Shown: in pieces, positions 729-25,107 of the stretch
Position numbering within the stretch: the first letter of the stretch is position 1
How the letters are laid out: the number at the start of each line of letters is the position of its first letter
Virus record (IMG/VR): IMGVR_UViG_3300050821_000570
Coordinates: 1-34,114 of that record
Length of the DNA: 34,114 nucleotides
Direction: 5' to 3' (one strand)
Source: a virus
Notes under the pieces: model-generated
The model's input: only the letters and a program-made list of their open reading frames with translations
Database searches by the model: none
Told to the model about the DNA's origin: nothing
Translations under genes and position numbers: made by a program

Positions 729-1166
729 TTATTGAGTTGTGCAGCCTGAAGTCGTGTTAGTGCAGGTTAGCTTGGTCGGTGCATTCACCAGATCGCTCGG
801 GTAGGTAATGAGCCCCGTATAATCCCCTGCTTTTGGCAGCACCGCACCCGTGCGCCCATTAAAACTTGTGACACCCGCAGCATTGTTAGGGAATGCGAAT
901 GTCGCACTCCCGTCAATCGCATAAGCCACTCCAGAGGTTGCTATGGTTCCCGTATCCACGGGGCAGGCCGCCAAAATGTGGATGCCGGTAGTTGGAATGT
1001 AAGTCGGCCATGCACACTGCGAGAGAGCCGAGACTCCGCCGAGCTGGAGATAGCCGACTGCGCTAGTTTGTGCCTGAACACTGCTGCGGGGCGAAACCAG
1101 TGATTCTGCAAACAACGCTAGCATCAAGGTAACCGCCAAAAGCCATATCGGAACTGGTCTGTTCAT
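729..1166 (-). CDS. Short secreted tail-fibre-like protein
   Basis: The 145-residue product starts at ATG 1166, chosen because it gives a full signal peptide (MNRPVP, a hydrophobic core of about 16 residues, cleavage near VQAQ) and has GAAGGGA at good spacing. A longer frame upstream is out of character and only overlaps the preceding gene. The mature part is Cys-, Thr- and Gly-rich and contains SFNGRTGAVLPKAGDYTG (about residues 101-118). That motif recurs in phage tail fibre and collar proteins at module boundaries. It is the last appendage gene before the holin-like region. Its first 104 nt overlap the 3' end of the beta-helix gene in another frame. A role as a fibre tip or small appendage is inferred. 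Confidence 0.7.
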   Translation of the reverse strand: MNRPVPIWLLAVTLMLALFAESLVSPRSSVQAQTSAVGYLQLGGVSALSQCAWPTYIPTTGIHILAACPVDTGTIATSGVAYAIDGSATFAFPNNAAGVTSFNGRTGAVLPKAGDYTGLITYPSDLVNAPTKLTCTNTTSGCTTQ

Positions 1167-3108
1167 AGTTTCCCTTCGACATAATGATTGATCCTGCAAA
1201 GAGTCTTGATGGGCCCGGATTCGATGGAGGCGGCCCTGTTCCCGCTGCAAATTCATAAGCGCCAATTGACGGCGGACTGGGCCTAACTACTCCGTCATGG
1301 TCGTAAGTTGGAATGAATGGCGGCCCTGTAGTGACCCCTGTGCCATTGGCAGGACTCCCCGCAGACGAGAGGTGCAGATTCGTCGCACACGAGGCTGGGC
1401 AGCCTGTCGTTGAAGTGCTGGTAAACAGCGGGTCGGTAGTGACTGAGTTTGTAACCTGTGCACTAGAGCACGGATTTGGTGAGCACGTCAGGCCGAATGT
1501 GAGATTCTTATTTCCGGTAAGGAACGAGGCTCCCGGTCCCGATAGCCAGTAAGGAATGCCGCCTGTGCAAGGCGAGGCTTTCGAGGTTTCAGAGACTACA
1601 TTGCTGTAGATTGTCCCGGTTTCTGCGGTCTGCGCGTTCGGAGTGCCGCCGCCAGGATCATCGTCTAGGGCAAGGCCTGTGACTCGCGTATTACATGAAG
1701 ATTCTCCCGTTCCGACGATGTTTCCCGTGGAATAAAGCGTGTTGAAGAATACTGCGAAGTTTCCTGATCCTGCTGGGCCCGCAACTCCAGGAGTGCCTTG
1801 ATAGCTCCCAAATTGATTTGTGCGGGCGATGAATATTCCCGTGAAGGTGCCGCCGCCTTCAAATGTTGGCGGCCCCTGCCCAACCAACCAAAGCACATTG
1901 TTGTAAATGCTAACCGCACCAAGCGAAGGGTCGGTTACGGAAGCAACGATGCCGTCGCAGGTCGTGCTCCAGATTGAATTGTCGTGGATTTTGTACAAGT
2001 ATTCGTTAAAATCGTTCGAGTAGACTTGCAGGCCTCTGCATCCCACTACATCTGAAATCTGACTCCAGCCCAACTCGTACCCAGAAGAATTATCCCCGTA
2101 ATACATGCCATGATACTGATCGTCAGGGCCGCCGGGTTGCGCGGCACCAATACGGTGCCAGTTCATGCCATAGAAGAAGTTGTCAATTAGTCCCGTAGTC
2201 GCATCTTCGCCGATATTTCCGGTATGCAGGCATGCGTCCGATCCGCTTCCAGATGGGCATGAGGCGTCAATTGCGACAAATCTCCAATGCTGCGAACCTT
2301 TCCCTGTTCTTGTATTGCAGTCAGAGTTAAAAGGCGGCTTGGTATGATCCTCTGAAATAGCATTGCCTTGAAGTCCGAGCGCGTCTGACGTTGCCCGCAG
2401 ATTGATTTCTGCGAGCGTGAAGAAGCCTTGTCCTGCTTGAGGCGTAGCGGTGCAATCCGTGTCTCGGAACGCTAGACCCGCTAATGATGTGGTGCCCGCC
2501 GTAACGGTCGCACCCGGATAAGCTGCAAGTACGGTATTAAATCCAGAACTGGTAGTGTTGCACCACTCAATCGAGCAGGAAATTGCTCCCCAGCCTCGCG
2601 CATCAATCGTGTCTTGGTGCACTCCATTTTCTGCGTAGCAAATGTGCCCATCAGGGGGGCTCTGCACAGAGGATATGCAAGCGAGCATCGTCAGATAGGG
2701 ACTGGCGAAGGTTCCCGCATTGCCATCATTCCCAGTTGTTGCGATGTAGCGGATATTTCCGGCCCGCACCGTGAAAGGGATGCCGTTGGACGTTCCTGCC
2801 GCCGTAGTAACGACGAAGTTTCCAGTCGCACAAGTCGTGCCGACTTTCACAACCATCCGCTCATACCACATCCAAGTGGCTGGATTGGAAACCACGGTCA
2901 GGCAGGAAGATCCATTCAAGGTTACAGAAGTAAAGCTGTCGAGGAAGTTGCCGTAAAGTGTGACGTACACTCCGCCCGTTGCAGAGAAAGTCGTATCCGA
3001 GTTGCCGGAGTTCGGCCCATCCGTCAAGTCAGTAAAGAACAGGACGGGCGCAGTCGTGGCAAATGCCGGAGCAACCAACAGCAGGAGTGCTAAAAGAATC
3101 TTTCTCAT
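1063..3108 (-). CDS. Secreted right-handed beta-helix appendage protein
   Basis: A 681-residue protein starting at ATG 3108, where ATGA overlaps the stop of the upstream gene. Residues 1-17 are a signal peptide (MRKILLALLLLVAPAFA). Residues about 20-115 look like an IPT/TIG Ig-like domain (GGVYVTLYGNFL, VVVKVGTT-type strands). From about 118 the pattern ATTGNDGNAGTFASPYLTM is the classical opening of a parallel beta-helix. The body is full of short Asn/Gly/Cys-rich rungs, and the domain closes with DHDGVVRPSPPSIGAYEF, a common beta-helix C-cap. Such folds in tailspikes bind or cleave surface polysaccharide, and no catalytic residues can be assigned here. The last 60 residues, after a Pro-rich linker, carry no recognised domain and overlap the next gene by 104 nt. 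Confidence 0.75.
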   Translation of the reverse strand: MRKILLALLLLVAPAFATTAPVLFFTDLTDGPNSGNSDTTFSATGGVYVTLYGNFLDSFTSVTLNGSSCLTVVSNPATWMWYERMVVKVGTTCATGNFVVTTAAGTSNGIPFTVRAGNIRYIATTGNDGNAGTFASPYLTMLACISSVQSPPDGHICYAENGVHQDTIDARGWGAISCSIEWCNTTSSGFNTVLAAYPGATVTAGTTSLAGLAFRDTDCTATPQAGQGFFTLAEINLRATSDALGLQGNAISEDHTKPPFNSDCNTRTGKGSQHWRFVAIDASCPSGSGSDACLHTGNIGEDATTGLIDNFFYGMNWHRIGAAQPGGPDDQYHGMYYGDNSSGYELGWSQISDVVGCRGLQVYSNDFNEYLYKIHDNSIWSTTCDGIVASVTDPSLGAVSIYNNVLWLVGQGPPTFEGGGTFTGIFIARTNQFGSYQGTPGVAGPAGSGNFAVFFNTLYSTGNIVGTGESSCNTRVTGLALDDDPGGGTPNAQTAETGTIYSNVVSETSKASPCTGGIPYWLSGPGASFLTGNKNLTFGLTCSPNPCSSAQVTNSVTTDPLFTSTSTTGCPASCATNLHLSSAGSPANGTGVTTGPPFIPTYDHDGVVRPSPPSIGAYEFAAGTGPPPSNPGPSRLFAGSIIMSKGNYEQTSSDMAFGGYLDASVVCRITGFAPQQCSGTN

Positions 3109-3542
3109 TTCAGTTCTTTTTTCCATTGATTGAATCGGTCGCAAATCATGTCAATCTGAGCTGCGGAATCTCCCGTCATGGGCTCGTCTAGTCCGGGCAT
3201 GGGGAACTTATGCACATCGCCAGTTGCTTGCTCAAGAGCGAGTCTTAAACGTTTGCCCCGCAGCCTAAAGTTTGTCGTGAACTGGTCGCTCAGTTCGTGA
3301 TGCGTTTTACGTTGTTCGTCCGAAACTTCCTTTACCTTGTGGAAGTCCTGATGTGCACGTACTGCCGCTTGTTTATTGGCGCGAAAGGTTGTCACGTCTT
3401 TCGCTATTGCCGCATCCAGAGCAGGCTTATAAATTGCGCGGTGCTTCTGCAAGTCCGCACAAAATGCATCTACTTGTGATTTAAGGTCTGCTTGTGCGAA
3501 TGCAGGGATGCAGCAGATAACAACTGCTAACAGAATCTTCAA
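3105..3542 (-). CDS. Small secreted helical protein of unknown function
   Basis: The 145-residue product starts at TTG 3542: GGAG sits 6 nt upstream, and TTGA overlaps the stop of the preceding gene. The N-terminus is a short signal peptide (KILLAVVICCIPAFA, then QAD). The mature part is predicted to be almost entirely helical and charged, with many Lys, Arg, His and Gln, plus three Cys (in DAFCADL, in MICDRF and in the signal). It looks quite unlike the beta-rich fibre proteins around it. No family was recognised. Because it is translationally coupled to two exported appendage genes, it could be a periplasmic chaperone or assembly factor for them, or a periplasmic effector. Both are guesses. 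Confidence 0.65.
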   Translation of the reverse strand: MKILLAVVICCIPAFAQADLKSQVDAFCADLQKHRAIYKPALDAAIAKDVTTFRANKQAAVRAHQDFHKVKEVSDEQRKTHHELSDQFTTNFRLRGKRLRLALEQATGDVHKFPMPGLDEPMTGDSAAQIDMICDRFNQWKKELK

Positions 3543-4333
3543 AATATCTCCGTCTTTGGGCGAAGGATTGTCTTTGGAAGAACGATCTCTCCAGCAGTGG
3601 CGACTACCGCATTAACTTTGTAGACTGCCGCCTGTGTGCCAATTTCGTCAGTGTTGGAAGCGAAGCCCCATGAGGCTGTCGTATTCGTTTGCGTAACCGT
3701 GTAAATCTGATAGGCGGTGCCGAATCCGATAGAGGCGCAGGTCGGAGTTGTCGCAAGAGTGAATCCACTCGTAGCACTCAACCCTCCCTGAATGCAGGAG
3801 GAATCGTCGCCGATGACTGCGAAGCCAATTTCCGGTGCGCCAACTGTGGAGTATGTGCCCGTGGCGAGGGTGGTAACGGGCACTGAGCCTGTCGATTCGC
3901 CCGTATTGCCAGTGTCGAACGAGCACCCGCTTGTGCCGGAGAATTGAACCTGCCCTGCTGCAATGTCGGCAGTTGCTCCAGTAGAAACGGCAATGGTGTA
4001 AGAGGCCGTCGAGGCCGTGACCTGAGCGCAGCACGTTCTAATCCCTACCCACTGGCCTCCAGACTTGCCGACGAAGTTAACTTGCGCCTGACAAGTGAAT
4101 GTCCCTAGCGAAGAACTAGGCACGCCGATCACCGCAGGAGTTGTATTGATGGCACCTGTTCCCGTCACAATCCCTACCCAAACAGAGTTGCCATTGGTAT
4201 AGGCCGTAGAGGGGATATTGCAGCCCGTGTTTCCTCCGCCGCAGTCAACTGGAGTGTCATTGACGTGCGCGATGACGGCAAAGGCCGGGGAGCAAAGTGC
4301 CAATAGCAGGAGCAGTCTCAGTTGTATTCGCAT
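3539..4333 (-). CDS. Secreted beta-sandwich appendage protein
   Basis: Start ATG 4333 is chosen because it opens directly with a signal peptide (MRIQLRLLLLLALCSPAFA). A GTG at 4357 is in frame but lacks a spaced ribosome site. The mature part of about 245 residues is rich in Thr, Ser, Gly and Ala and has about 12 Cys, including CGGGNTGC and TCCAQV. It shows repeated strands such as NSVWVGIVTG, ASYTIAVSTG and SWGFASNTDEIGTQAAVYKV, typical of a jelly-roll or concanavalin-like sandwich of unknown subfamily. It starts 4 nt after the long fibre gene and overlaps the next gene by TTGA, so the three appear co-translated. A receptor-binding role is inferred from position and composition. Confidence 0.65.
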   Translation of the reverse strand: MRIQLRLLLLLALCSPAFAVIAHVNDTPVDCGGGNTGCNIPSTAYTNGNSVWVGIVTGTGAINTTPAVIGVPSSSLGTFTCQAQVNFVGKSGGQWVGIRTCCAQVTASTASYTIAVSTGATADIAAGQVQFSGTSGCSFDTGNTGESTGSVPVTTLATGTYSTVGAPEIGFAVIGDDSSCIQGGLSATSGFTLATTPTCASIGFGTAYQIYTVTQTNTTASWGFASNTDEIGTQAAVYKVNAVVATAGEIVLPKTILRPKTEIF

Positions 4334-4337
4334 GGAG

Positions 4338-7217
4338 TTATTGACCAATGCAGTCACTTCCGGGCTCTATCGTGAGAGTTCCAGATCCGTTTGCCGCCGC
4401 TTGCAAAGTGACCGTTCCAGCGTTAACTCCGTTGTTCAGTCCCAAGGTAACTGTGGCTACTTGGTTTGTTGCGGTGGTCACAGTTCCGGAGTTCGCCATT
4501 GCGCTTGAGAATGCGGTCGCAGTGGCTTGAATTAAAGTTGTGGTGGTAACTGCACTCGTCATGCTTGATGCGAGCGTGGTCGGGGAGGCGGGGCCAGTCC
4601 ATTGGAATTTCGGCCCTGCGGTGTTCGCGGAAGCCTGCCAGATGATCGTGCAGGTTATAGCGTAAGAAGTGCTCGCATTTACAGGGATTGCCAACGTCGG
4701 CCCAGAACCTCCGACGACACTGCTGAACGTTGTCGTGGCATTGGTGTAGGCGGTTCCAGCCGTCACTAAAGCAACTGGGAGGTGCTGGGCGGTAGCGTTA
4801 TTGCTGTTCCAGTTCCAGACGTGAGTACCTGAATCTGGCCAGAGTTCTCCAACTGAAGCTACCCCAGTAGGTGCGGTGCCTTCATTCGCGCACAAGCCTC
4901 CAGCCGTTCCCGGCGTGCAGTTTGTGGCAGAACCAACCATCACATTCCCGGTGCCCTTGGCATTCAATTGCAGGTGAATGTTTGTATCGCTGCCTGTAGA
5001 GGCTACGGCTACAGTTGCAGGGTTTGCAGTTGCCGCATTCGTGACCGTGATTCCATCCACCGCTGAGGCTGTTGCAGAGGAGAGGATGAACGGGTTGCCA
5101 TTGGCATCATTGATCGTGGTTACTTTCGGAGTAACTAGCAGCGGCGAGGTGTTGAATACTGCCAAACTGGTGCCAGTCTCGTCAGACAGAACGCCCGCAA
5201 GCTGCGCCGAAGTCGTCGATGCAAATTGCTGCAAGCCCGTTCCCGTGACACCGCATGTCGCGCACGCAATTGTTCCGGTTGAGGTGATCGTGCCGCCCGT
5301 GATTGGTGAGGTTGTCGCGATGCTTGTTACAGTTCCTGATCCCGATCCGCCCGTGCGCACAATGGCGAAGTAATTTGTATTGTCTGAATAAATCCAAGCG
5401 CATTGCCCAGTGGTCAAGGCTAGAGTCGAAGCGCCTGCGGTATAAGCCGTTCCATTCGAGGAACTTATGGTGCCAGTGGTCGGGGTGATAGTCGCCGTTC
5501 CCGCACCAATGTCGCAGGCCACGAAAGCGAAGTTTGAAGCGAATCCCGTTGTTCCTGCTTGCGGCAGAGTTACTGCGATAGAGGCCGCATTGGAAAAGGT
5601 CACATAAGTTTCGCGGTCAGTCGCTAAGATCGTGTAGGTTGTGCCTGTCTGAGCATCTGCGGGCACACCGTTGGGCTGCCATGCCGGGGCAGTCGCCGCA
5701 CCAGCAGAAGGCGTAGAGGTCAGCACTTGGGGCACGCCATTTGTCGCCGTTGGCCCCGCCAATCTGGTAAATACTCCAGAAGCGCCGCCATAAATCTCAT
5801 CTCCCAGGGTGGTCATGGGATTGGTTACGGCGTTGGCTAATACGAAGGCATCCGTCGCAACTTTAGTCGTGTTGTCGCCGACTGTCTGGGTAGTGGCGGT
5901 CGCGCCATTCGCAAGCTGCGCCACGCCCGTGCCCTTGCCGGAAAGAGAAAGATTCACATTTGAATCAGAGCCGGAGCCCGCGATTGTGACCGTCGCAGGA
6001 TTACCAGTTGCGGAGTTCGTTACCGTGATCGAATCGACTGCGGAAGCCGTCGCCGAAGATGCGATGAAGGGATTTCCGTTCGCATCGTTAATGGTCGTGA
6101 CCTTGGGAGTAGTCAGTGCAGGGGTGTTGTTGCCGACAACCAATCCCGATCCGGTTTCATCAGTAATCGCAGCAAAAAAGTTGGCAGAGGAAGGTGTGGT
6201 TAAAAATGTCTGCACCCCAGAGCCGGGAGTGAAACTGCTGATTGCGCCCGTCGTGGTTGCAACGGTCACAATACCCGTAGAGAGCGCTCCGGGAAGAAAT
6301 AGTCCGCCGACTGCCGCAGCGTGCAGGTCGAGAATCCCCGAAGCTCCCGAAAGAATCGTGTGCGGAGTTGAGAAAGTGAAATCCGGGACGCAACCAAACG
6401 ATCCCGCACTGTTGAACTGGAGCGATAATGCAGTTGTGGTGCAAGGAGTCCCACCTCCGCCCGCAGGCGTGGCCCATGTTCCATCGCCACGCCAAAAGGT
6501 AGACGAACTTGCGGCAGTGCCCGAGTTCAGGTTATTGACTGAGAGGTTACCCGTTACATCGTTGGCGAGACTCACCGCGCCAAATGTAGGATTCCCTGCC
6601 GCATTGCCGTGCAGAACAGTAGTTGTCGTGCCCTGATTGGCAAATAGCGCACTCGTTAAACTAGGCGCGAAGTAAGAGGCGGGCCCAGTCGTGCCCAAAC
6701 TCCTGCCCCAAACAGTATTACCTGCGGCATTGGTCAGAGTCAGGGCTACGTTTCCGGTCGAACTGACGTTATTTACAAAGTTGCCATCTCCGGATACTGA
6801 ACTGACTGCCCCGCCTCCACCACCTCCGCCCCCGGAGATAAGCGCGGCATTCACATATGGCGAGGAGTTCATATTGATCGTTGCCGTATTGGTTACAGTG
6901 TTTCCGCAGGCTTGGAAGGTATCCAGTCCCGCCGTAGATACACTGTAGGCGCCATTCGCCGTGATCGTGCTCTGTGGGGTGGTTGACCCCTGCGGAGTTA
7001 CCGAAACGTTGAATGCGGCCTTGCCCTGAATAGAGCCTTGAGGCTGTATTGTGCCTGTCCAGGTTCCTGTAACCTGAATAACCACTGTGGCGCTATTGTT
7101 GGTATTGATTTGGGCGCATTGCGAGCCTGTGATATTGACTGGGCCCACAGAGGTCTGGGCGCGTGCGAGATGCCCGGAAAGTACCGCGAATAGCAGGACT
7201 GCCAGAGCTTGCTTCAT
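4338..7217 (-). CDS. Secreted long tail-fibre protein with internal duplication
   Basis: A 959-residue fibre starting at ATG 7217, which has an excellent AAGGAGC ribosome site. An upstream in-frame start would add only six residues. Residues 1-21 are a signal peptide ([21 protein letters not shown]). The body carries hallmark fibre modules: [19 protein letters not shown] followed by [15 protein letters not shown], a run of eight glycines near residue 135, [19 protein letters not shown], and two copies of an approximately 90-residue unit (SDETG...[15 protein letters not shown]...KGTG). The C-terminal 150 residues look like a beta-sandwich tip. Composition is Thr/Ser/Ala/Gly with very little charge. 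Such proteins form trimeric fibres that recognise the host, so the signal peptide is unexpected for a cytoplasmically assembled virion part. Confidence 0.85.
4937..5214 (-). repeat. Fibre internal repeat, copy 2
   Basis: Encodes the second copy of the fibre unit ([21 protein letters not shown], then [17 protein letters not shown], ending KGTGNVMVG). The protein match to copy 1 is high over the central 45 residues, but codon choice has drifted, which indicates an old duplication kept by selection on the protein. Boundaries are approximate. Confidence 0.75.
5915..6186 (-). repeat. Fibre internal repeat, copy 1
   Basis: First copy of the fibre unit ([21 protein letters not shown], then [17 protein letters not shown], ending KGTGVAQLA). 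It lies about 0.7 kb upstream of copy 2 in coding order, separated by unrelated fibre sequence including a [19 protein letters not shown] segment. Boundaries are approximate. Confidence 0.75.
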
Positions 7218-7231
7218 GTAAGCTCCTTTCT

Positions 7232-8824
7232 TCAATTTAATTGCTCCAAGAGAAATGTCTTGCCGGAACAGCTATTAACTGCCGCAGTTCCGAATGTGCA
7301 GAGAGTACCTACATTTACTGCGGCGGTTAGATCGATGGAGGTGAAGGTTTGATTGGGAAACGTGGCCGCCGTCACTCCCGCGCTTGTATAAGGAAGGGAG
7401 ACATAGGAGCAATTCAGGGCTCCCGAACTACCTGCCGTAACCACCGTGCATACTTCTGAAAACGATGCTTGCTGAAGTGTCGCGGACGTTCCCGACGCCA
7501 CGGTACTTAAAGATGATGGGGAGACATTCCAAATGCCCCAATTTAAACTCAGGGTATAACTTGCCGCCGGAGTCATCGTGAAGCCGGAGGTCAGCCGGAA
7601 ACTTTTGCCTAATACATTGAGAGCGCCAGCTTGAAATGTGCAGTTTTGCACAATAGATGGGGTATTAGTCGCCACTGCAACCGTATTTGGCTGCAGCGCA
7701 CAGTTCAGAGACGTGCCGCTACCGGGAGGAAACAGAAGGATCGGGTCGGTGCCCGTTGAGCCATTTGTGAATAGAACTCTTCCGATATTCTGCCCACTTG
7801 GCGCTAGTCCCGCATCATGGCAATTCCCAGCAGTGATTGAACTAATGGAAACGAAATCGCCCGCAGTGGTCGCGCCATCAAATGTGCAGTTCGTGGTGCC
7901 AGTCTGCTGAATTGTCGCGTTCCCAGAGGTACTGCAGTTCGCTACACAGATACCAACCACTCCGCTTGTATCCGTCGTTGCGGCGATGACCGCAGTAGAT
8001 GACGAGGAACCGTTCAGCTTCGTTAAGGTGAATAGCGATGTGCCCGTGGTGCCCGCATTCGCAATCGAAAAGAAAGTCGGGGAACTAGAGGCCGCAACTG
8101 CTCCCGAGACAGTCAGGCTTGTGCCGACAATTCCGCCTGCTGAAATATCTGGCCCCGGCCCATCAACTGCTGGCCCTAACGCAAATGCATTGGTGCCATT
8201 CCATACAAATTCCTGAGTCGTTATATTTCCGCCGCTAGTGCCGATCGGTGCGCCGCCGATTACATTCGTCGGCCATGTGAAAGTGTGGCCGCCTACTACA
8301 TCCTGAATGATTTGAAAGGTAATCAATCCCGGAGGGGTGACGCCCACAACATTCAATGGAAGCGCTGTCGCATTTCCGGTCAGAGTGAATTGAAATAATT
8401 GGTTCTGGCTGGTGACCGTGAATTGCGGTGCGGGGGTGAAGGGAACGGTAACCGCAAGAGTCGAGACGCCGCCGCCGATGCCATTGATCGTTGCGACGGT
8501 CACTCCAGAGGCGCAATTCAGACCACCGCTTCCCTTAATTCTTAGGCTGTAGCTGACTCCGCTCTGAATCCAAATATTCCCCTGCCCACCCCCTGAGAGG
8601 ATTACCGGATTGGCATTCTGTGTCGCACCCGTTGAATCCGTCCATGTTGGAATCGGATTGGTTGTTCCGGAAGCGTATGAAAACACACAGCCAAATGAGT
8701 TTGGGGTGCCGCTCTGCAGGAAGCTCTGGAATAGCGGAATGGGTGCAAGAATTACTGGCGTAGTCTGCCCAAAAGCGACCAAGGCACAGCACAGCACCGA
8801 GATTAAAATTGCAAGTTTTTTCAT
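7232..8824 (-). CDS. Secreted tail fibre with virion-binding N-domain
   Basis: A 530-residue protein starting at ATG 8824. Residues 1-20 form a signal peptide ([20 protein letters not shown]). Residues about 25-100 ([58 protein letters not shown]) match the head-binding N-domain of many short-tailed phage tailspikes, which docks the spike onto the tail hub. A middle part with [24 protein letters not shown] and [21 protein letters not shown] is a fibre or surface module common in soil bacteria and their phages. The C-terminal 140 residues are beta-rich. A docking domain placed behind a signal peptide is striking. No ribosome site precedes the start; an AGTATAAC sequence sits 10 nt upstream. 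It ends 14 nt before the next fibre gene. Confidence 0.8.
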
Positions 8825-8890: not shown

Positions 8891-10276
8891 TTAATTGGCT
8901 GGTTGATTTTTATGATCGGCGTTCTGCTGCCCGTTTGCAGCGTTTGCGAGCGCAGCGTAATAAGCATCAAGTCTCTGACTCACAGTCGAGAGCTCTCCCG
9001 GATTCCTCGCAGCCCGGTATAGAGCAATGGCAAGATTAGATTTGACGTTCGGGTTGTCCAGAATTGTCTTGAGTATTCCTGCACTTGTTGCAATCCCCGG
9101 ACTTCCCGTCAATGCTTCCGTTGCTCCGGCTGCGATTGGCCCGCTTATTCCAATTAAATTGTGATTGCCTACTCTCTGTACTGCTTTTTCCAGAACTGGC
9201 TGTAGATTTAGGAGTTTAGACTCGCTGGCATTGAGATTGGCCAATTCCGGAAATGCGTTATTTAGTTCTTCCTTTAGTCCGCGAGCTAGGGCCTTCTGTG
9301 ATTCGATGGTCGCGCTCTTCAGTTCCCCATACGACCGCCCCTTGAGTTGCTGATATGTGCCCTGCTTGAGAGCTTGCGCTTGTGCAGCAGGAATATCACC
9401 GGGTTGGCTCTCGGCGAATTCCTTCCCACTTTCATAAATAGAATTTAGATCTGCGGCGGGATTGACCTGAGTGGAAAATTTATCCACTACTGGATTTAGT
9501 CGTTGCAACACCTTCCCTGAACTAACCGGGCGATCCGGTTGCGCCTGAATCTCTGCTTTAATCTTGTCATTTAGGTCATCGACCAAATCAGTCAGCTTCT
9601 CGATTCCGGTATGGCTTACGGGAACGCCCTGTTCTAATCCGGTTTGTACAATTTGATCGATCTTGGGCGCAGGAATTCTCGTTGAGGGCTTCAATGCGCT
9701 TTGATATAGGGTTTCCGGTTTCGGCGCGATTGCCTTAATGCCTCGCATAGCTAATTCTGTCGCAGCCATTACCATAGGGACAGCAGCCGCGTGTCCCAAA
9801 ACTCCGCCTTTATCACCTTCCTTGGCAGACTGTTCTTCCCCTGCGACATTCACTCCCATCATTTCGTTCGCAGTTGCACCCAGGTCATAGAGGTGCCCGT
9901 GTTCCTGAACTCTCTGCGCGTTCTTGGCTAGCGCATCTTTATTTTGCTGTTGCGCGATCTGCCACTTGTCCTGATCTGATACTCGGGGATCGGCTAATGG
10001 GTCGGGTGCGGCCAATGCTTCTGGAATGGACGCAATATCGCTCCACGCTTTGTGCCAGAATCCCGCATGCTGAGTTTCTTGATCTTGGATAGGGACGATT
10101 GACCCGCCAGCCTTGACCGCATCTTGTGTGCGATCTGCTGGAATAACCCCCAGTGACCCATCGGGAGATTTAATCGTTACTCCGGGCTTGCCGCCCGCAG
10201 CTATGGCATCATGCATTCGCTCATAGGGAACATCGCCCAGCGTTCCGTCTGGTGCGAAGATTGGTACTGTACTCAT
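8891..10276 (-). CDS. Putative DNA-ejection (internal virion) protein
   Basis: 461 residues, starting at ATG 10276, which overlaps the upstream stop as ATGA. The N-terminus has two imperfect copies of a 28-residue unit: FAPDGTLGDVPYERMHDAIAAGG and KSPDGSLGVIPADRTQDAVKAGG. The rest is mostly helical, with a small hydrophobic patch (VLGHAAAVPMVMAATELAM, about 149-167), a coiled region (about 225-330) and a Gly/Ala segment near 375-400 (GISGPIAAGATEAL). It is third in a coupled set whose first member looks like a P22 gp7-type transfer protein, so by position it corresponds to gp16-type ejection proteins, which leave the capsid before the DNA and line the path through the envelope. Sequence alone does not prove this. 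Confidence 0.6.
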   Translation of the reverse strand: MSTVPIFAPDGTLGDVPYERMHDAIAAGGKPGVTIKSPDGSLGVIPADRTQDAVKAGGSIVPIQDQETQHAGFWHKAWSDIASIPEALAAPDPLADPRVSDQDKWQIAQQQNKDALAKNAQRVQEHGHLYDLGATANEMMGVNVAGEEQSAKEGDKGGVLGHAAAVPMVMAATELAMRGIKAIAPKPETLYQSALKPSTRIPAPKIDQIVQTGLEQGVPVSHTGIEKLTDLVDDLNDKIKAEIQAQPDRPVSSGKVLQRLNPVVDKFSTQVNPAADLNSIYESGKEFAESQPGDIPAAQAQALKQGTYQQLKGRSYGELKSATIESQKALARGLKEELNNAFPELANLNASESKLLNLQPVLEKAVQRVGNHNLIGISGPIAAGATEALTGSPGIATSAGILKTILDNPNVKSNLAIALYRAARNPGELSTVSQRLDAYYAALANAANGQQNADHKNQPAN

Positions 10277-11778
10277 CGCTTCTTGCCGCCGAAATTAGAG
10301 AAGAAGTCGCCGCCCTTGCTTTCTACATTCACAACACCATTCGCCTTATTGCCAGCACCAGCCTTGATGATCTTGTCCAGTTCATCGCGCTTGGAAGACA
10401 TCAGGTTCTTATATGCCTGCGCAACTCCCGCGATCTGTTCTGGGCTGGATTTATTTACATCTAGAACGCCATGACCTTGCGCGACTTCCGCATCGGTCAT
10501 GTGCCCCTTGGCAACTACCGATGTAACTTCATGGTTATAGGCATTGGCTATCGCTTGCGCTGTTGTTGCATCGGGTGAACCGAACTGAGTGGAGAAGTAG
10601 TTTTTGAGCTGATTCAACTTCTGCACATCGCCATTCTGTAACGCTTTCGAGGCTGTCAGCAGTTGATCCGCATGGTCAATTGCAGTGTTATAGGCAATCC
10701 GCGTATCTGCCCATGCGCCAGAGCGTGCTTTCTTGGCCGCATCGCTTTCAAGGCCAAACTCTGAGGTGTCGTAGTTCGGATTGATTTTGTAGACTTGCGC
10801 CATGATCGCGTTCTTGGTCGATTGCGGAGTGCGCGGGGAAACTGCCTCACTCCACTTCATGCGATTTTCAGCGAGCGCTTGCGCGATCTGCGAGGGGTTG
10901 CCATTGTTGTCCGCCGCCGCACCTGAGTTTTGCAGGTTGAAGTTGGCGACTGGAACCAACGTCTTATTTTTCTCGTATCCCTTCACAAATGCCGCATCGT
11001 CTGCGTTTAGCGCATGGCCCTGACTCTTGAGTGCTTGCAGGCGAATATACCGCGCCTCCATTAGGGCTGGCGTCAGCCCTTGCTGCATATTCTGTGTTTC
11101 TACCTGAGTTTTGGCAGTATTGGCTGCTGCCTCAATAGTCTTCTGCTGGGATTCGGCGGTTTGAGCTGCCGCGTGTTTGGTTTCTGCCTCAGTCTTAGCC
11201 TGTGCCGCAACCCCAGCTAAACCCTCATTCATCTTTGCGGACTGGTCAATCAGTTGCCGAAGTTGTGTCGGATCGGAAGTCGATAGAATCTTTTGCTGCA
11301 AGCCCTGAGCCTGCGCCGGGTCAAATATTCTCCGCTGCACCAACTGGTTCACGGTTTGCAGCGCTTGATCGTGCAACTGCTCGTCCGGAACGTCTTTTAA
11401 CTCTCCCAGCGTATCGCCGACAACTTTTCTATTGGCGATGAAGTTTTCGCGCTGGTCTTTATCGAGAGTAGACAAGGACTGCTTAACTTGCAGACCATGT
11501 TGCTGAATCGCAGTGGCCGCATTCGCAGAGCCGCCGTTATCCAGAACTGACTTGGCCAGCTTGTCATAATCTCCGCTGGATGGATCCCACTGATTCATTG
11601 CTGCAGTTGTGGCCTGCTGATCTTTAATCGCCTGCCCGCGAATCTGCATCTCTTGTTGCTGCGCTTGCTGTTGCTGAATCTGTGAACGCAACTGTGCTAC
11701 ACGCCCGAATTCCGCGAGGGGATCGGGCGGTGCGACTGTCGGTTTAACGTCTAGCGCGGGAAGAGGAAATCCACTCAT
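10273..11778 (-). CDS. Putative ejection protein, coiled-coil
   Basis: A 501-residue, Gln/Ala-rich helical protein starting at ATG 11778, 2 nt after the stop of the upstream gene and joined to the next by ATGA. Residues about 25-60 are a Gln-rich coiled coil (RSQIQQQQAQQQEMQ). Residues 170-235 are Ala/Gln/Thr coiled coil (AQTAESQQKTIEAAANTAKT). Residues 350-460 form a helical domain (AWADTRIAYNTAIDHADQLL, NYFSTQFGSP, HMTDAEVAQGHGVLDVNKSS). The tail is basic (GGDFFSNFGGKKR). No signal peptide or Cys is seen. Position between two ejection-like genes suggests a P22 gp20-type internal protein. Family membership is inferred from order and composition. Confidence 0.6.
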   Translation of the reverse strand: MSGFPLPALDVKPTVAPPDPLAEFGRVAQLRSQIQQQQAQQQEMQIRGQAIKDQQATTAAMNQWDPSSGDYDKLAKSVLDNGGSANAATAIQQHGLQVKQSLSTLDKDQRENFIANRKVVGDTLGELKDVPDEQLHDQALQTVNQLVQRRIFDPAQAQGLQQKILSTSDPTQLRQLIDQSAKMNEGLAGVAAQAKTEAETKHAAAQTAESQQKTIEAAANTAKTQVETQNMQQGLTPALMEARYIRLQALKSQGHALNADDAAFVKGYEKNKTLVPVANFNLQNSGAAADNNGNPSQIAQALAENRMKWSEAVSPRTPQSTKNAIMAQVYKINPNYDTSEFGLESDAAKKARSGAWADTRIAYNTAIDHADQLLTASKALQNGDVQKLNQLKNYFSTQFGSPDATTAQAIANAYNHEVTSVVAKGHMTDAEVAQGHGVLDVNKSSPEQIAGVAQAYKNLMSSKRDELDKIIKAGAGNKANGVVNVESKGGDFFSNFGGKKR

Positions 11779-11780
11779 GC

Positions 11781-12575
11781 CTAACGGCCATCCAGATCAG
11801 GATTGTAGGAACTTCGGTTCGCTTGCTGCTGTTGTGCAATCAATGAATACAGAGGGATTTCGGACGCGAGGCCGGACAGGCTATTTATGCCACCCGATAC
11901 GGCATTTGCGGCACCAACCGTTCCGCTAGCTTGCGCGGTAGCTTGCCCCACATCCAAGTTGCCTGTATTGCTCGCCGCCGCTTGCCCCTGAGAACCAAGA
12001 TTGGCTGCCGCATTCGATCCAATTCCGGCCAATCCTGCGAGGCGGTTGTATTCATTGGTCTGTCCTGAGTTCCAAACTCCATAGTTCGTCAGGTAGGTAT
12101 TCAGTGCTTGCCCGTAAAGATTGTTGTAGTCGGTCTGCGCTAATCCTTGCCCATAATCGGTGAGCGCCTTCCCCGTATTTCCGGAAAGCAAGTTCCCAGT
12201 TGCAGCGGCGTTCTGATTGATCGCATTCGTTCCTTGCTCCAATTGGAATTGATAGCCTGGAGCCTGTTCTGCCTGTTGCAGAGTCGGTGCGGTGAAGTTT
12301 CCGCCCGGATACTGCGAGAGAAGCCCTTGCCCCGGAGTCTTCAGTAATTCCGCTAGGCTATTGACTCCCTGCGTGCCCGCTTTTAGAAATGGCGCTTCAT
12401 TTTGCTGTTGCTGGTTCCATTCCTGCTCTTGAAAATCAAGGGCATTCTGTGCGCCCTTCGCCTGAGTGCTTGCGGCACTTTTGGCCGCACTCGCCCCTAT
12501 GGCTGAGGAGGCTACGCTCCCCGCCGCCGCCGCCCCAACTCCAATTGCAATCGCTGTTGTAGTGGCTACACTCAT
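11781..12575 (-). CDS. DNA transfer (ejection) protein, P22 gp7-like
   Basis: 264 residues starting at ATG 12575, chosen because ATGA overlaps the stop of the oxygenase gene. The N-terminus is an Ala/Gly/Ser hydrophobic segment (AIAIGVGAAAAGSVASSAIG) that could cross a membrane. It is followed by QEQEWNQQQQNEAPFLKAG and then the characteristic core APGYQFQLEQGTNAINQNAA, GNLLSGNTGKALTDYGQGL, DYNNLYGQALN, and EYNRLAGLAGIGSNAA. This pattern is shared by many podophage and siphophage proteins annotated as DNA transfer or internal virion protein. The role is to enter the cell envelope at infection and help DNA cross the periplasm. It lacks an N-terminal signal peptide, unlike the fibre genes. Confidence 0.8.
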   Translation of the reverse strand: MSVATTTAIAIGVGAAAAGSVASSAIGASAAKSAASTQAKGAQNALDFQEQEWNQQQQNEAPFLKAGTQGVNSLAELLKTPGQGLLSQYPGGNFTAPTLQQAEQAPGYQFQLEQGTNAINQNAAATGNLLSGNTGKALTDYGQGLAQTDYNNLYGQALNTYLTNYGVWNSGQTNEYNRLAGLAGIGSNAAANLGSQGQAAASNTGNLDVGQATAQASGTVGAANAVSGGINSLSGLASEIPLYSLIAQQQQANRSSYNPDLDGR

Positions 12576-13162
12576 GGGTTCACGTCGTAGAAACAAATCC
12601 AGATCAAGCGCCCATCTGCAGAACCGGAACCGAACGCTTCAAACGGGTAGCGAGAATGGAAAAAACAAGTCGGATATGTGATGAACCTGTTCCACTTCAT
12701 CGGCACCATATTGGTTTGCTGCCACGCATCTTTCTTTTTCCACTCCTGATTCATTATGGCGTAGTAGTTATCTGCATCATGCCCAGCTTTGGTAAGTTCT
12801 TCGCGGCCTAAAAGCCTGTCCACGCCCAGTTCTTTATGCCGCCAGAAAGCCGTACCGCCTTTACACTGCATGGGAAGATTGAGGTACAGAACGCTCGCAT
12901 ACTTCGCGCAAATATCGTCAGAATGCACCCATGAGTGAGGGTTTTCTCCCGCCAAGTTAAGGCGAAAGCAAGATAGCTTGGGGTTAATCTTTGACCCAAC
13001 CACTTTGCTTACTCGGTCATACCAGTGCGGTACTTCGTATTTCGAGATTCCCGTATAAACGGCGCTATCTGGCCCAATCTCGTCAGTGAACCCTTCTGCG
13101 ATGACTGCCCGCCTGATTAAATCCGCATCCGGTGCGAAGTTGTCGAAGATTAAAGGGTTCAT
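12572..13162 (-). CDS. 2OG-Fe(II) oxygenase-like protein (DUF6445-like)
   Basis: 196 residues starting at ATG 13162 (ATGA overlap with the GNAT stop). The double-stranded beta-helix signature of Fe(II)/2-oxoglutarate dioxygenases is visible: HSDD with H80-x-D82 as the first metal pair, strands ASVLYLNLP (89-97) and GGTAFWRHKELG (102-113), then TYPTCFFHSRYPFEAFG with the distal H169, and R185 in GRLIWICFYD as the probable 2-oxoglutarate anchor. All key residues are present, so it may be active. The substrate is unknown: protein prolyl/lysyl side chains, nucleic acid or a small molecule are all possible. It is translationally coupled on both sides, between a GNAT enzyme and the gp7-like ejection gene, suggesting modification of a virion or host protein late in infection. 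Confidence 0.75.
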   Translation of the reverse strand: MNPLIFDNFAPDADLIRRAVIAEGFTDEIGPDSAVYTGISKYEVPHWYDRVSKVVGSKINPKLSCFRLNLAGENPHSWVHSDDICAKYASVLYLNLPMQCKGGTAFWRHKELGVDRLLGREELTKAGHDADNYYAIMNQEWKKKDAWQQTNMVPMKWNRFITYPTCFFHSRYPFEAFGSGSADGRLIWICFYDVNP

Positions 13163-13584
13163 AATGTGCGGGAATAACTTGCTTCGACGAACTCATACTT
13201 CATGTGCTTGTAAACTCTCGCAACTTGATCTGTAGGTGCGACCATTTGAATCTGCTTTGCGCCCGCTTCTTTGGCGATGCGCTCAAATTCCTTCATCAGC
13301 TTCAGTCCATCGCCGCGCTTACCCGGTTCCTGCCACCAAAATACCTCGCCTGCAACTTTCTCGCCCGAGATGAAGTGGTCATAGATGAAGAATCCGAGCA
13401 TTCCGACCAGACTCCCATCCCTCTCGCTCACTAATAATGCTTGGCATTGAATGAGTTTCTCCGCGAGCTCTTTCATTTTCGACGGATTCTCCCGCAACAA
13501 CTTTTCGTAGGAAGTGGTGCCCCTGAAGTTAAGGCCCATTTCTACTAATCGCGGCACATCTTCAAGAGTTGCGAGGCGAATCAT
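13159..13584 (-). CDS. GNAT-family N-acetyltransferase
   Basis: 141 residues from ATG 13584 (ATGA overlap with the 934-aa gene; an upstream extension would enter that gene out of frame). GNAT features: an N-terminal MIRLATLEDVPRLVEM strand-helix, central strands LLVSERDGSLVGMLGFFIYD (50-69), the acetyl-CoA loop around WQEPGKRGDGLKLMKEFE (84-101) with RGDG in place of the more usual Q/RxxGxG/A, and a C-terminal VARVYKHMKYEFVEASYSR that matches the last strands of the fold. It should transfer an acetyl group from acetyl-CoA to an amine. Similar GNATs sit beside virion genes in many phages with no known target. It is coupled to the 2OG oxygenase. Confidence 0.8.
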   Translation of the reverse strand: MIRLATLEDVPRLVEMGLNFRGTTSYEKLLRENPSKMKELAEKLIQCQALLVSERDGSLVGMLGFFIYDHFISGEKVAGEVFWWQEPGKRGDGLKLMKEFERIAKEAGAKQIQMVAPTDQVARVYKHMKYEFVEASYSRTL

Positions 13585-16385
13585 TGTAAGATCGCTACAA
13601 ATACATCGCCGCGCGGCTGGCCGATGTTTGTCCAAGTGCAAGTGCCATCGGTTACCGTCAATCCTGCGGTTTGCGGGAAGGTCGGCTTCGATGCACCCGT
13701 CGTACAGTTGCCCGTCGCCTGGAAGATGTAGCCGGAGTTGTTATTGGTCTGCGGCCACAGTAGACCGTTCGCCAGCACGGTTCCGGATGCGCTCCAGTCG
13801 GCGGGCATGTATCCGGTTGCCGCGCCTATGTTCGTGCCTAGCGTCCCCATCCAGTCAGACGAGAACATCGCCCCTGTGCCGTCTAGCGACATGACCGCCA
13901 AGCCCTGTTGCGTATTGAAAAACGGCGAGTAACCTGAGTTGAACGTGTGGTATTCGCGGTAGTTCGGCCCATTCGGGTTCTGCGCGATCAGGAGTTGACC
14001 TTCCGAGTAGCAGCAGCCGGGGAATGCTTGAATGAAATAGTTTGTGGTTCCCGAAGGAGTTCCACCCGTGCAAGAGCCGAAAGTGATTTGCGTTGCCGAA
14101 GTAAATGCGGTTACCGTACAGGTCGCAGGGCCCAGCGCAATTGGCACATTCACCTCATTCGAGGTAAAGGAATTCCCAATCTGCAAAGTAGCTACAGAGC
14201 CAGAGATTGAAACCTCCCCCCAGCCTAGCGGGTACTTTAAGGCCGTATCTCCCTGCGGCGTTGTCATGTACATGATCGCGCCTGTATCGACTGACCCACC
14301 CGGCCCTGGATTTGTGCTCCAGTTGACATGCGAATCCATGATTGATCCGCCTGCGCGGCACGGCATATTGGAATATGGATACGAGGTACCGAGACAAATC
14401 TTTCCTGCCCACGGAGAGGGAAACCCGAGCAGGTTCGTCGAGGCCGCTGACGGAGTAGCGTAGGGATTGGAGCCATAGTTAAACATCTGGCCTGCGGGAG
14501 ACTTCTGCCCTACGAATAAGTCGATGCCCTCGACCTCGTGGCCCGTGCAACTGATGCAGGCGGCCACATTCGCGGTCGTGATCTGCCAGAAGTAGTAAGT
14601 CGCAGCGCAGGACGTGATGCAGCCAGAAGGCACACGAGTGACAGTGATGTAATTCCCGCCGTGATATTTGACGTTGTGAATTGTGAATCGGTCGGCGATG
14701 GATATGGTTCCTACTGTAGATTGCGTCCAGCTTCCGCCAGAGAACTGATACTTCAGGACTGCTCCGGTGCAGGTGTTGTAAGTCCAATATTGATTCGTGG
14801 TTGGCGTCGGATTCTGACCGTTCAGAAGCGTGTCGCCCACGATGCAGCCTGTATCCTGCCCTGCCGTAGTCGAGTAGCCTTCCGCCATGTGAAATGACAG
14901 GGAGTTAAGCGAGTCGTTATGATCCATCCCGCCCATTGAGTGCCAGCAGACTGGATCCGGCCCAATGCCGCCGCGCTGATAAGTGACGTTGGTTGCCGGA
15001 GTTACTGCGGGGGCAACTGTGATCTGCGTCGTCGAAATAAAAGATGCTACGTTGGTGTTCTGCCCATTGATAATCATGGGCGTTCCCACCCAAGCAGAAT
15101 TGAACTTCGTTACCGCTACCCAGTTGATCGTCGTTCCATCCGAAGTCGAGACGATGCCGCCGTTCGAGCCGCATTGGAATGGCGTTCCAGGTAAGGCGTT
15201 CGCGAAGTCGGCAACGGTCGTGGTCACCGGACCTGCAGCGGGATTCCCTACCGTCGGCGTCTGATAGTTCGTAACATCCGTGCGCGTGAACACTGTGCCT
15301 GATTGCGAGCCGTGGTCATAGAACCAGAAGTTGTTGTTGTAGCTCCACTCTCCGCAGCCAGCTACGAGGTAGTTAGCTTTAGTCTGCGCGACTCCGTTGA
15401 TTTGCGGATAGAGCGGGAAAGACTTGTGGTTGGTGAAGTCCAGACCGCGCAGGAAGTAAAACCCGCGATTGTCCCCGATCAGAATGAATGTTTTGTTGAC
15501 GCTGAACTGAAAATCATCCGCCGATCCGCCGCATTCCGTCACGTAAGTAACATTGGCGTTCGATCCAGTCTGGAAGTTTCCATCTGATGCGCGGAAGATT
15601 TTTGCGCCAGAGAGCGTCGAATCCGTGATGACTGCATTGGAGCTAATGAGTCCGCCAAGTGAAGGCGCTACCACCGCAGGGGCAATCTGCACGCCTTGAG
15701 TCGCGCACAGGTAATTCGGCGGCCCACATGCAGCGGCGGCATTAACCGTTAATTGCACCGAAAGCGGGGACGATACATTGCTTCCTGAATCCGTGCAGGT
15801 TACAGAAAACGTCGTGACGCCTGCGACTTCTGCATTAGTGCCTGAGAGAACTCCGCCCGAAGACAAAGTAAAAGCGCCCGGCAGTGATCCGGATGAAACT
15901 AACCAGGTATAGGGCCCGGTTCCGCCCGAACATCCGAAAGTAAATCCCGGATAGACCAACCCCTGTGTACCTTGAACGGGGATGGCGCAGGGTGGAACTC
16001 CGCACGCAGGATTGTTGACAAGGGGCGACGGTGCGACCGTTAATGTCGTGGTTCCGGTGCATGGCGATCCGCCGCACTCAAACCCTGAACCTACGGAGCA
16101 GGTTACAGTAGTAGCTCCCGATGATAGTGCCTTAAACGATTCATTGTTATTAGATGCGACGGTTGGGTTAGAACTTGTCCATTGGCACTGGTTTGTCACT
16201 AAAACGAGCGAGGGATTCAGAACCGCAGAAAATACCTGGCTGGTTAACACTGCAATAGTCGAGTTTGCCGGAAGCACCGTCACTCCGGTTGGCGGTGTTT
16301 GCGGCCCCGAGACAACGACGTTCTGCTGCCCGTAGGCGCGACCTGAAAGCATCAGTGCCAATGCGAAGATAGTTATAAGTTTCAT
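13581..16385 (-). CDS. Large secreted Ig-domain appendage protein, Cys-rich
   Basis: 934 residues from ATG 16385, 2 nt after the previous stop. A signal peptide (MKLITIFALALMLSGRAYGQ) leads into a BIG2-like Ig domain (about 30-115: VTVLPANSTIAVLTSQVF, WTSSNPTVASNN) and then a putative He_PIG or cadherin-like Ig domain (about 135-215: GTGPYTWLVSSGSLPGAFTL, GVLSGTNAEVAGVTTFSVTC). Residues about 230-780 are a long Trp/Tyr/Gly-rich beta region with blade-like repeats and SDD, WHSMGGMDHND and HNVKYHGG segments, perhaps a propeller. The C-terminus has a fibre motif (FPQTAGLTVTDGTCTWTNIG). It contains about 30 Cys, exceptional for a phage structural protein and typical of exported disulfide-bonded proteins. 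A receptor- or polysaccharide-binding role is inferred. Confidence 0.7.
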   Translation of the reverse strand: MKLITIFALALMLSGRAYGQQNVVVSGPQTPPTGVTVLPANSTIAVLTSQVFSAVLNPSLVLVTNQCQWTSSNPTVASNNNESFKALSSGATTVTCSVGSGFECGGSPCTGTTTLTVAPSPLVNNPACGVPPCAIPVQGTQGLVYPGFTFGCSGGTGPYTWLVSSGSLPGAFTLSSGGVLSGTNAEVAGVTTFSVTCTDSGSNVSSPLSVQLTVNAAAACGPPNYLCATQGVQIAPAVVAPSLGGLISSNAVITDSTLSGAKIFRASDGNFQTGSNANVTYVTECGGSADDFQFSVNKTFILIGDNRGFYFLRGLDFTNHKSFPLYPQINGVAQTKANYLVAGCGEWSYNNNFWFYDHGSQSGTVFTRTDVTNYQTPTVGNPAAGPVTTTVADFANALPGTPFQCGSNGGIVSTSDGTTINWVAVTKFNSAWVGTPMIINGQNTNVASFISTTQITVAPAVTPATNVTYQRGGIGPDPVCWHSMGGMDHNDSLNSLSFHMAEGYSTTAGQDTGCIVGDTLLNGQNPTPTTNQYWTYNTCTGAVLKYQFSGGSWTQSTVGTISIADRFTIHNVKYHGGNYITVTRVPSGCITSCAATYYFWQITTANVAACISCTGHEVEGIDLFVGQKSPAGQMFNYGSNPYATPSAASTNLLGFPSPWAGKICLGTSYPYSNMPCRAGGSIMDSHVNWSTNPGPGGSVDTGAIMYMTTPQGDTALKYPLGWGEVSISGSVATLQIGNSFTSNEVNVPIALGPATCTVTAFTSATQITFGSCTGGTPSGTTNYFIQAFPGCCYSEGQLLIAQNPNGPNYREYHTFNSGYSPFFNTQQGLAVMSLDGTGAMFSSDWMGTLGTNIGAATGYMPADWSASGTVLANGLLWPQTNNNSGYIFQATGNCTTGASKPTFPQTAGLTVTDGTCTWTNIGQPRGDVFVAILQ

Positions 16386-16387
16386 TT

Positions 16388-17176
16388 TTAGTTAATTCTC
16401 TGCGTGCACTTGGGGTGACTCGCCACGCCAGTTGTTCCCGTGAGAGTTACGGTTTGCAGTTTCCCAGCCGCATCTCCTTCAAAACTAGAACCAGATGTCC
16501 CATACATGGGCCAGTAACCTTGCAGGCCACTCGATCTGACATTGATTGGGCACGAGAAATACAGACTCTTCGCCTCTCCATCAGTCAGTGCCACGTTCCA
16601 TAAAGCTGTTTCTGCGATGAAGCCGGAGTAGTTAACCGTTGTGCAGACTCCCAGCGGAACCGCGCCAGTAGTTGCGTATCCGCCGAAACACCAATCAGGA
16701 TTGCCTGCGGCTTGCGTTTGTATCGTCCCGTTAAAGCTCGTGCCAGTTCCGCAAAGTACGCCATCTTCGTAGATGAAGAATTGCCCAGTCCCTCCACCAG
16801 CACTACCATTGCCGATGCCGACGACGTTGTGCCAAGAATTTGCGGTTACCGTTGTCGTGCAATCTACAAACAGATCGTGGTTTAAGGCTGTGCTTTGGTG
16901 GATATAGAAACTCAGGTGATTTGTGTGGCCGCTTCTCGACAAGCTGATGTAGTAAGTGCTCGTCCCATTTGCGGTGTTTCCCTTGCCGACTAAATCCGCT
17001 TCTGCACCCGGAACAGATGACACAAAGAACCAAGTGGACATGCTGATAAGCGCCCCGCCATAGAAGTCGAGGTTGGCTCCAGCAGCTGCCTGCGCTTTGT
17101 CCGTCGTGCCATTAAACGAACGTGCGCCATAAAGTGGGAGCGCATAAAGAATGGCGAGGGCAATCAGTTTCCTCAT
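16388..17176 (-). CDS. Secreted LamG/concanavalin-like lectin domain protein
   Basis: 262 residues from ATG 17176, which overlaps the upstream stop as ATGA. A signal peptide (MRKLIALAILYALPLYG) precedes a single LamG-like jelly roll: ARSFNGTTDKAQAAAGANLD, then ISMSTWFFVSS, YYISLSRSGHTNHLSFYIHQ, SWHNVVGIGNGS, GQFFIYEDGVLCG, IAETALWNVALTDGEAKSLY, and GLQGYWPMYGTSGS. The order F-G-T-D, W-T/W-F, W-H-x-V, I-x-x-D-G and A-E-x-A-x-W-N is classical for laminin-G/pentraxin-type lectins that bind glycans. It lies between two other signal-bearing appendage genes and is coupled to the tail fibre. Likely a carbohydrate-binding virion appendage or surface protein. Confidence 0.8.
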   Translation of the reverse strand: MRKLIALAILYALPLYGARSFNGTTDKAQAAAGANLDFYGGALISMSTWFFVSSVPGAEADLVGKGNTANGTSTYYISLSRSGHTNHLSFYIHQSTALNHDLFVDCTTTVTANSWHNVVGIGNGSAGGGTGQFFIYEDGVLCGTGTSFNGTIQTQAAGNPDWCFGGYATTGAVPLGVCTTVNYSGFIAETALWNVALTDGEAKSLYFSCPINVRSSGLQGYWPMYGTSGSSFEGDAAGKLQTVTLTGTTGVASHPKCTQRIN

Positions 17177-18747: not shown

Positions 18748-19079
18748 CCAGTCTGCCACCACAACGTACCGTCTGACTTGATCTTGAAGAATTGCCCTTT
18801 CACCGCAAGCGTTAGCGGGCCGCCTTCTGCACCGTTTAAGGTGTAGGTATTTCCGTCGCCTGAGACTTTGACGAAGGTTATTTCCTGGTTCTGATTCGAG
18901 GTGCCTGTGGTGCTGTTCAATCCCGCAGGAGGTACTTCTTCCGAATATTGCCCCTGAGAGGTGTCCACTTCATTCAGTGGGTGCAGGTTCTGCAGAGTAA
19001 ACAGCCAGTTGATTAAAGTCTGCGGAAGATTCAGGCCGCGTATCGGCGGAGGAACTACTACCGTCTGCGTGGTGGGCAT
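18744..19079 (-). CDS. Small tail-associated protein, unknown
   Basis: 111 residues from ATG 19079; the start shares its A with the stop of the gp10-like gene (TAATG). The N-terminus is Pro-rich (VVVPPPIRGLNLPQ) followed by a short helix (TLINWLFTLQNLHPLNEV). The C-terminal half is beta-rich (ITFVKVSGDGNTYTLNG, GQFFKIKSDGTLWWQTG). No family was recognised. In P22 the slot after gp10 holds the tail needle gene, but no long coiled coil is present, so a needle assignment is not supported. Coupling on both sides to gp10-like and fibre genes suggests a small hub or fibre-adaptor component. Confidence 0.6.
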   Translation of the reverse strand: MPTTQTVVVPPPIRGLNLPQTLINWLFTLQNLHPLNEVDTSQGQYSEEVPPAGLNSTTGTSNQNQEITFVKVSGDGNTYTLNGAEGGPLTLAVKGQFFKIKSDGTLWWQTG

Positions 19080-25092: not shown

Positions 25093-25107
25093 TGATGTTT
25101 GTCCTTA

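Follow-up and report, generated by a model that had tools for sequence, protein, structure and literature searches.

The fibre gene at 7232-8824 raises the question of how a protein that appears to be exported could also be a part of the virion. A preliminary description of this locus placed a tailspike head-binding domain at residues 25-100, directly behind a signal peptide, and pointed out that such a domain would have to meet a tail hub in the cytoplasm. To our knowledge, virion assembly in tailed phages is regarded as a wholly cytoplasmic process. The window, i.e., the whole stretch of DNA analysed here, is a virus record of 34,114 bases with a P22-type late region on the minus strand, in which the genes follow the order small and large terminase, P22 portal, scaffold, P22 coat, adaptor, Hc3/gp10-type hub and ejection proteins, and appendage genes flank the ejection genes on both sides. 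By the sequences of its portal, coat, hub and ejection proteins, the phage as a whole is classified as a P22-like podovirus. The main features of this late region are given below.

26281-28548, minus strand: P22-type portal (Pfam P22_portal, E 8.5e-98)
23863-25092, minus strand: P22-type major capsid protein (Pfam P22_CoatProtein, E 2.4e-23)
19079-20542, minus strand: tail hub or head closure protein Hc3 (gp10-type), without signal peptide (PHROG 578, E 5e-83); expected to be the cytoplasmic docking partner
8891-12596, minus strand: three ejection-type proteins with 0 Cys, directly upstream of the docking fibre; 11781-12596 matches PHROG 598 'DNA ejection' (E 3e-37)

Relatives were found via the capsid protein and 36 capsid-related viral contigs were searched, while a direct search of viral contigs with the whole docking-fibre protein gave no match. 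The open reading frame of the docking fibre (7232-8824) lies on the minus strand, the plus-strand translation being full of stops, and could be divided as follows.

8768-8824, minus strand: signal peptide, residues 1-19 (from the sequence, and in 23 of 23 homologues in capsid-related phages)
8465-8767, minus strand: virion-docking (tailspike head-binding-like) domain, residues 20-120 (tblastn, phmmer and Foldseek)
8687-8689 and 8513-8515, minus strand: codons of the docking-domain cysteines Cys46 and Cys104, respectively
7232-8464, minus strand: shaft/receptor part, residues 121-530, where conservation is lower than in the docking domain

Signals were called by a simple rule of our own making (not SignalP), which was checked only against four named control phages, where 1 of 61 late genes was called signal-bearing. 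By this rule, the docking fibre has a positive n-region (KK), a hydrophobic core and a small-X-small cleavage site, AFG|Q, of the Sec/SPI type, with no lipobox there. The docking domain is present in 23 of the 36 capsid-related contigs, and in all 23 a charged and then hydrophobic leader stands directly before it. These leaders end in a small-X-small site that is nearly always followed by Gln (+1 Gln after A, G, S or C in 22 of 24 signal-bearing rows). The letters of the leaders are strongly divergent among the homologues and the layout is constant; since the signal is kept in all 23 in spite of this divergence, it is not a chance feature. The signal peptide proposed ahead of the docking domain was thus borne out, and the docking fibre is predicted to be exported and cleaved as a Sec/SPI protein, with the cysteine signature presented below as indirect support. 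It has the n-, h- and c-regions and the small-X-small site in common with other Sec/SPI exported proteins, but the signals here are on presumed virion appendage proteins of a tailed phage and some of them have long n-regions. In about 11 of 25 docking-fibre signals the n-region is 14-20 residues long, that of the window itself being short, and several of the long ones carry a QWH..SVT-like motif. Extended signals with a long n-region are known from autotransporters, and the long signals of these relatives resemble them.

Homology and fold matches both indicated a docking fold behind the signal, although over about residues 20-118 rather than 25-100 as first described. In tblastn, the docking domain matched the tailspike of Xanthomonas phage PBR31 (7e-11) and, altogether, annotated tailspike or fibre N-termini in 32 phage records, and phmmer matched it to the solved Pan3 tail spike (9vyg, E 6e-4). 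The AlphaFold2 model, built from 21 homologues, was of modest confidence (pLDDT 69.5, core blocks up to 93). In the comparison with the P22 tailspike N-domain that had been suggested as a check, the P22 entries 2vky and 2xc1 were among the best Foldseek matches in the PDB (9vyg 9e-4, 2vky 2.8e-3, 2xc1 3.5e-3, 7eeq 1.7e-2, probability 1.00), and the top eight were all tailspike or P22/Sf6-type tail entries (probability 0.99-1.00), with an Sf6 tail entry eighth. The TM-scores (0.43-0.53) were near 0.5, and the match is therefore one at the level of the fold, with modest geometry. Neither Pfam nor PHROGs had a useful hit to the docking fibre; for Pfam this carries little weight, as the signal-less homologues lay outside that scan. 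The sequence searches and the model thus support homology of this domain to tailspike virion-docking domains.

The tailspikes of P22 (gp9; 2vky, 2xc1) and of the cyanophages Pan3/Pam1 (9vyg, 7eeq) are like the window fibre in fold, N-terminal placement, late-gene position and variable C-terminal part. However, they are cytoplasmic, have neither a signal peptide nor the cysteine pair, and share only about 20-25% identity with it. The closest named docking domain is that of the PBR31 tailspike (orf034, 34% identity), the N-terminal part of which was read by its authors as a virion-binding domain (PMC10975493). The gene order in PBR31 is like that of the window, with internal proteins A-C followed by the tailspike, and the docking fibre, directly after its three Cys-free ejection-type proteins, is in the same position. 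Unlike the window fibre, the PBR31 tailspike starts with MAVQIAPLP and has no signal and no cysteine pair. Next to this signal-less tailspike gene in PBR31 comes orf035 (24674-25483 of that phage), annotated as a 'putative structural protein', whose N-terminus resembles a signal, MKKLIALFSLFCTSA|F.

Whether other homologues of the docking domain lack the signal was examined by a profile search, which gave 80 loci (24 signal-bearing and 56 signal-less domains); most of them do lack it and have the domain's own Met as their start. The 11 named homologues of this kind were all without a signal, and their start Met was only a few residues away from where the domain begins. The two groups are in register, with signal-less starts at profile positions 1-3 and mature signal-bearing starts at 0-1, and the signal-less start Met is 0-2 residues from the mature end of the window fibre. 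These matching registers suggest that the signal was fused precisely to a pre-existing N-terminus. The signal-bearing rows formed one side of a branch in the tree (99/88, 100% of bootstraps) and, with the cysteines masked, still formed one group, though with a lower support of 77, which points to a single origin of the signal on the docking domain in this phage clade, whose members are uncultured and P22-like. As the signal is carried by the window fibre and by every homologue in the capsid-related phages, this fibre is a variant, and not an ordinary member, of a docking-domain family that is normally signal-less.

Exactly two cysteines were present in 24 of 24 signal-bearing docking domains and none or one in 56 of 56 signal-less domains. 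Given the common origin of the signal-bearing rows, the pair should be counted as a co-gain with long retention, and not as 24 independent events. Cys46 and Cys104 would presumably form a disulfide in the periplasm. In the window and 16 relatives, mature signal-bearing proteins had 2.03 Cys per 100 residues, compared with 0.48 in signal-less late proteins. The number of cysteines was even in all 10 signal-bearing proteins of the window (4, 20, 2, 8, 12, 12, 28, 6 and 18, and 4 in the capsid-adjacent protein), and even counts were found in 38 of 42 members of the three main signal-bearing families versus 45 of 91 signal-less late proteins, all of these statistics being drawn from related, and not independent, sequences. 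The paired cysteines and the even counts suggest that the proteins really reach an oxidising compartment. The cysteine pair, the cysteine density and the even counts, together with signals throughout the module, make export look real and selected. The other signal-bearing genes of the window are the following.

22881-23858, minus strand: protein adjoining the major capsid protein, 4 Cys; signal in 14 of 15 relatives, in the 15th at a downstream Met
18694-18747, minus strand: signal peptide of the second fibre, residues 1-18, MKRLFLVAILMIGCAAQA|Q (from the sequence; signal or hydrophobic leader in homologues), start ATG at 18747
18358-18693, minus strand: N-domain of the second fibre with six cysteines, residues 19-130, conserved (relatives about 71% identical)
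17173-18357, minus strand: swapped C-terminal part of the second fibre, 26% identity
16388-17176, minus strand: LamG/ConA-like lectin, 6 Cys in the mature part (Pfam PF13385, E 2.3e-10), between the genes of the second fibre and the 934-aa protein
13581-16385, minus strand: 934-aa protein with a Big_2-like domain, 28 Cys in the mature part
4338-7220, minus strand: fibre-like protein, 12 Cys, grouped by blastp with the second fibre family
3539-4333, minus strand: protein with 8 Cys
3105-3542, minus strand: protein with 2 Cys in the mature part
1063-3111, minus strand: protein with 20 Cys
729-1172, minus strand: small protein with 4 Cys

Signals were found in 13 of 13 members of the docking fibre family, 17 of 19 of the second fibre family and 14 of 15 of the post-capsid family, but in 0 of 18 hubs, 0 of 17 portals, 0 of 15 coat proteins, 0 of 21 scaffolds and 0 of 17, 1 of 16 and 2 of 15 members of the ejection families. 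The exported set would presumably be the exterior of the particle, and the packaging-related or internal proteins would remain cytoplasmic. The protein at 22881-23858 may be an exported head-decoration protein.

The claim that the fibre at 17173-18747 has the same arrangement could be supported only in part. It has a signal peptide and a conserved N-domain (71% identity versus 26% in the rest, which is about the shuffled level), with six cysteines in 14 of 15 sequences, one distant sequence being without the last two together. However, no relation of this N-domain to the first docking domain was detectable by hhalign (probability 0.4%), its model was unreliable (pLDDT 50), the N-domain itself had no match in 50,697 phage records, and the second fibre had no useful hit in Pfam or PHROGs.

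The compartment mismatch noted in the preliminary description is real, as the hub at 19079-20542 has no signal in any of the 18 members of its family, but a conflict between export and docking need not follow. Israel, Anderson and Levine reportedly joined P22 heads and base-plate parts in vitro in 1967. Since tail parts and heads of P22 can be joined in vitro, docking at a late stage is reasonable on chemical grounds, and the conflict becomes a question of timing. Among the three escapes offered earlier, the best fit is an assembly that finishes once the inner membrane has opened; the conserved cleavage sites speak against a retained signal, and a slow signal could still apply to the relatives with n-regions of 14-20 residues, the window's own being short.

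It is rather probable that assembly occurs in two compartments, with a Sec-exported fibre that carries a P22-type docking domain and docks at lysis. The signal peptide would have been fused once in this clade, exactly at what had been the N-terminus of a docking domain in the cytoplasm, the two cysteines arising together with it and presumably forming a periplasmic disulfide. The same route would have been taken by the appendage genes nearby, i.e., those of the second fibre, the lectin, the large Ig-like protein and the capsid-adjacent protein. Heads would be filled with DNA and given their hub in the cytoplasm, and the appendages would pass through Sec, be cut before Gln, and be folded and oxidised in the periplasm. 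When the inner membrane fails at lysis, the mature fibre would dock on the hub of the released particles, as P22 tail parts do in vitro. At the sequence level, the signal, the docking homology, the single origin, the co-gain of cysteines, the module-wide pattern and the signal-less hub all support this assembly, and from them we infer every step from export onward, i.e., cleavage, disulfide pairing and in vivo docking at lysis. With the signal directly before the docking domain, the disulfide marks on the exported proteins also indicate that the outer parts probably mature outside the cytoplasm and are attached only when the cell bursts. The chances seem evenly balanced that a clade of tailed phages builds its virions in this way, with DNA-filled heads and hub in the cytoplasm, a whole set of fibres and lectin with disulfide bonds (and perhaps the head decoration too) in the periplasm, and the two joined only at lysis.

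The exported proteins could instead be secreted or surface factors (receptor blockers, decoys or enzymes) that reuse a tailspike N-domain and have lost docking. Signals and cysteines would suit any secreted protein, and ten such genes are many for a podovirus tail. On the other hand, the N-domain is the best conserved part of both fibres (median identity of 54% versus 37% for the rest in the docking fibre, and 71% versus 26% in the second), and a conserved N-domain with a variable rest argues for a fixed partner, most simply the hub, although this layout falls short of proof of attachment to the virion. In P22-like tailspikes, head-binding residues 1-115 are alike and the C-parts occur in unrelated forms (PMC2629481), and this layout of a conserved N-domain and a swapped C-part is common to both fibre families here. 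Moreover, the docking-fibre gene follows the ejection genes, where a tailspike gene would be located, and the capsid-related genomes had one docking-domain match each, with no signal-less copy seen, so that without the exported fibre they would have no docked fibre of that type. Loss of docking is therefore considered unlikely.

Slow or leaky export, by which some of the fibre would fold and dock in the cytoplasm before translocation and the remainder would be exported for a second use, could explain the 14-20-residue n-regions of about 11 of the 25 docking-fibre signals and the QWH..SVT motif that recurs in some. It is quite improbable, as the signal of the window is short and the fixed cysteine pair inside the docking domain suggests that the oxidised form is the functional one. 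Start codons and the signal are predictions, and the hydrophobic N-terminus could thus be no working export signal at all, either because the start codon was misassigned or because the hydrophobic tip is retained. However, the layout of charge, hydrophobic core and small-X-small site before Gln is kept over diverging letters and recurs, together with the cysteine signature, in several unrelated families of one module, which makes this explanation very improbable.

If assembly in two compartments is true, the module-wide export of appendages would break the rule of all-cytoplasmic assembly for tailed phages, and these phages would gain disulfide chemistry for their receptor-binding proteins. 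Searches of the open-access literature found no report of docking-domain fibres with a signal peptide. One paper takes the absence of a signal peptide as support for a receptor protein being of phage origin (PMC6199706). Filters used in annotation that class proteins with a signal as bacterial would then miss phage receptor proteins.

The only relative of the capsid protein in a genome collection was 69% identical and located on a contig of 29 kb in a MAG that bears the name Betaproteobacteria; as a pointer to the host this is doubtful, and the contig may be misbinned. Between the appendage block and the ejection genes, 12572-13162 and 13159-13641 (minus strand) looked by eye like 2-oxoglutarate/Fe(II) oxygenase and acetyltransferase genes, and an acetyltransferase gene is similarly placed in PBR31.
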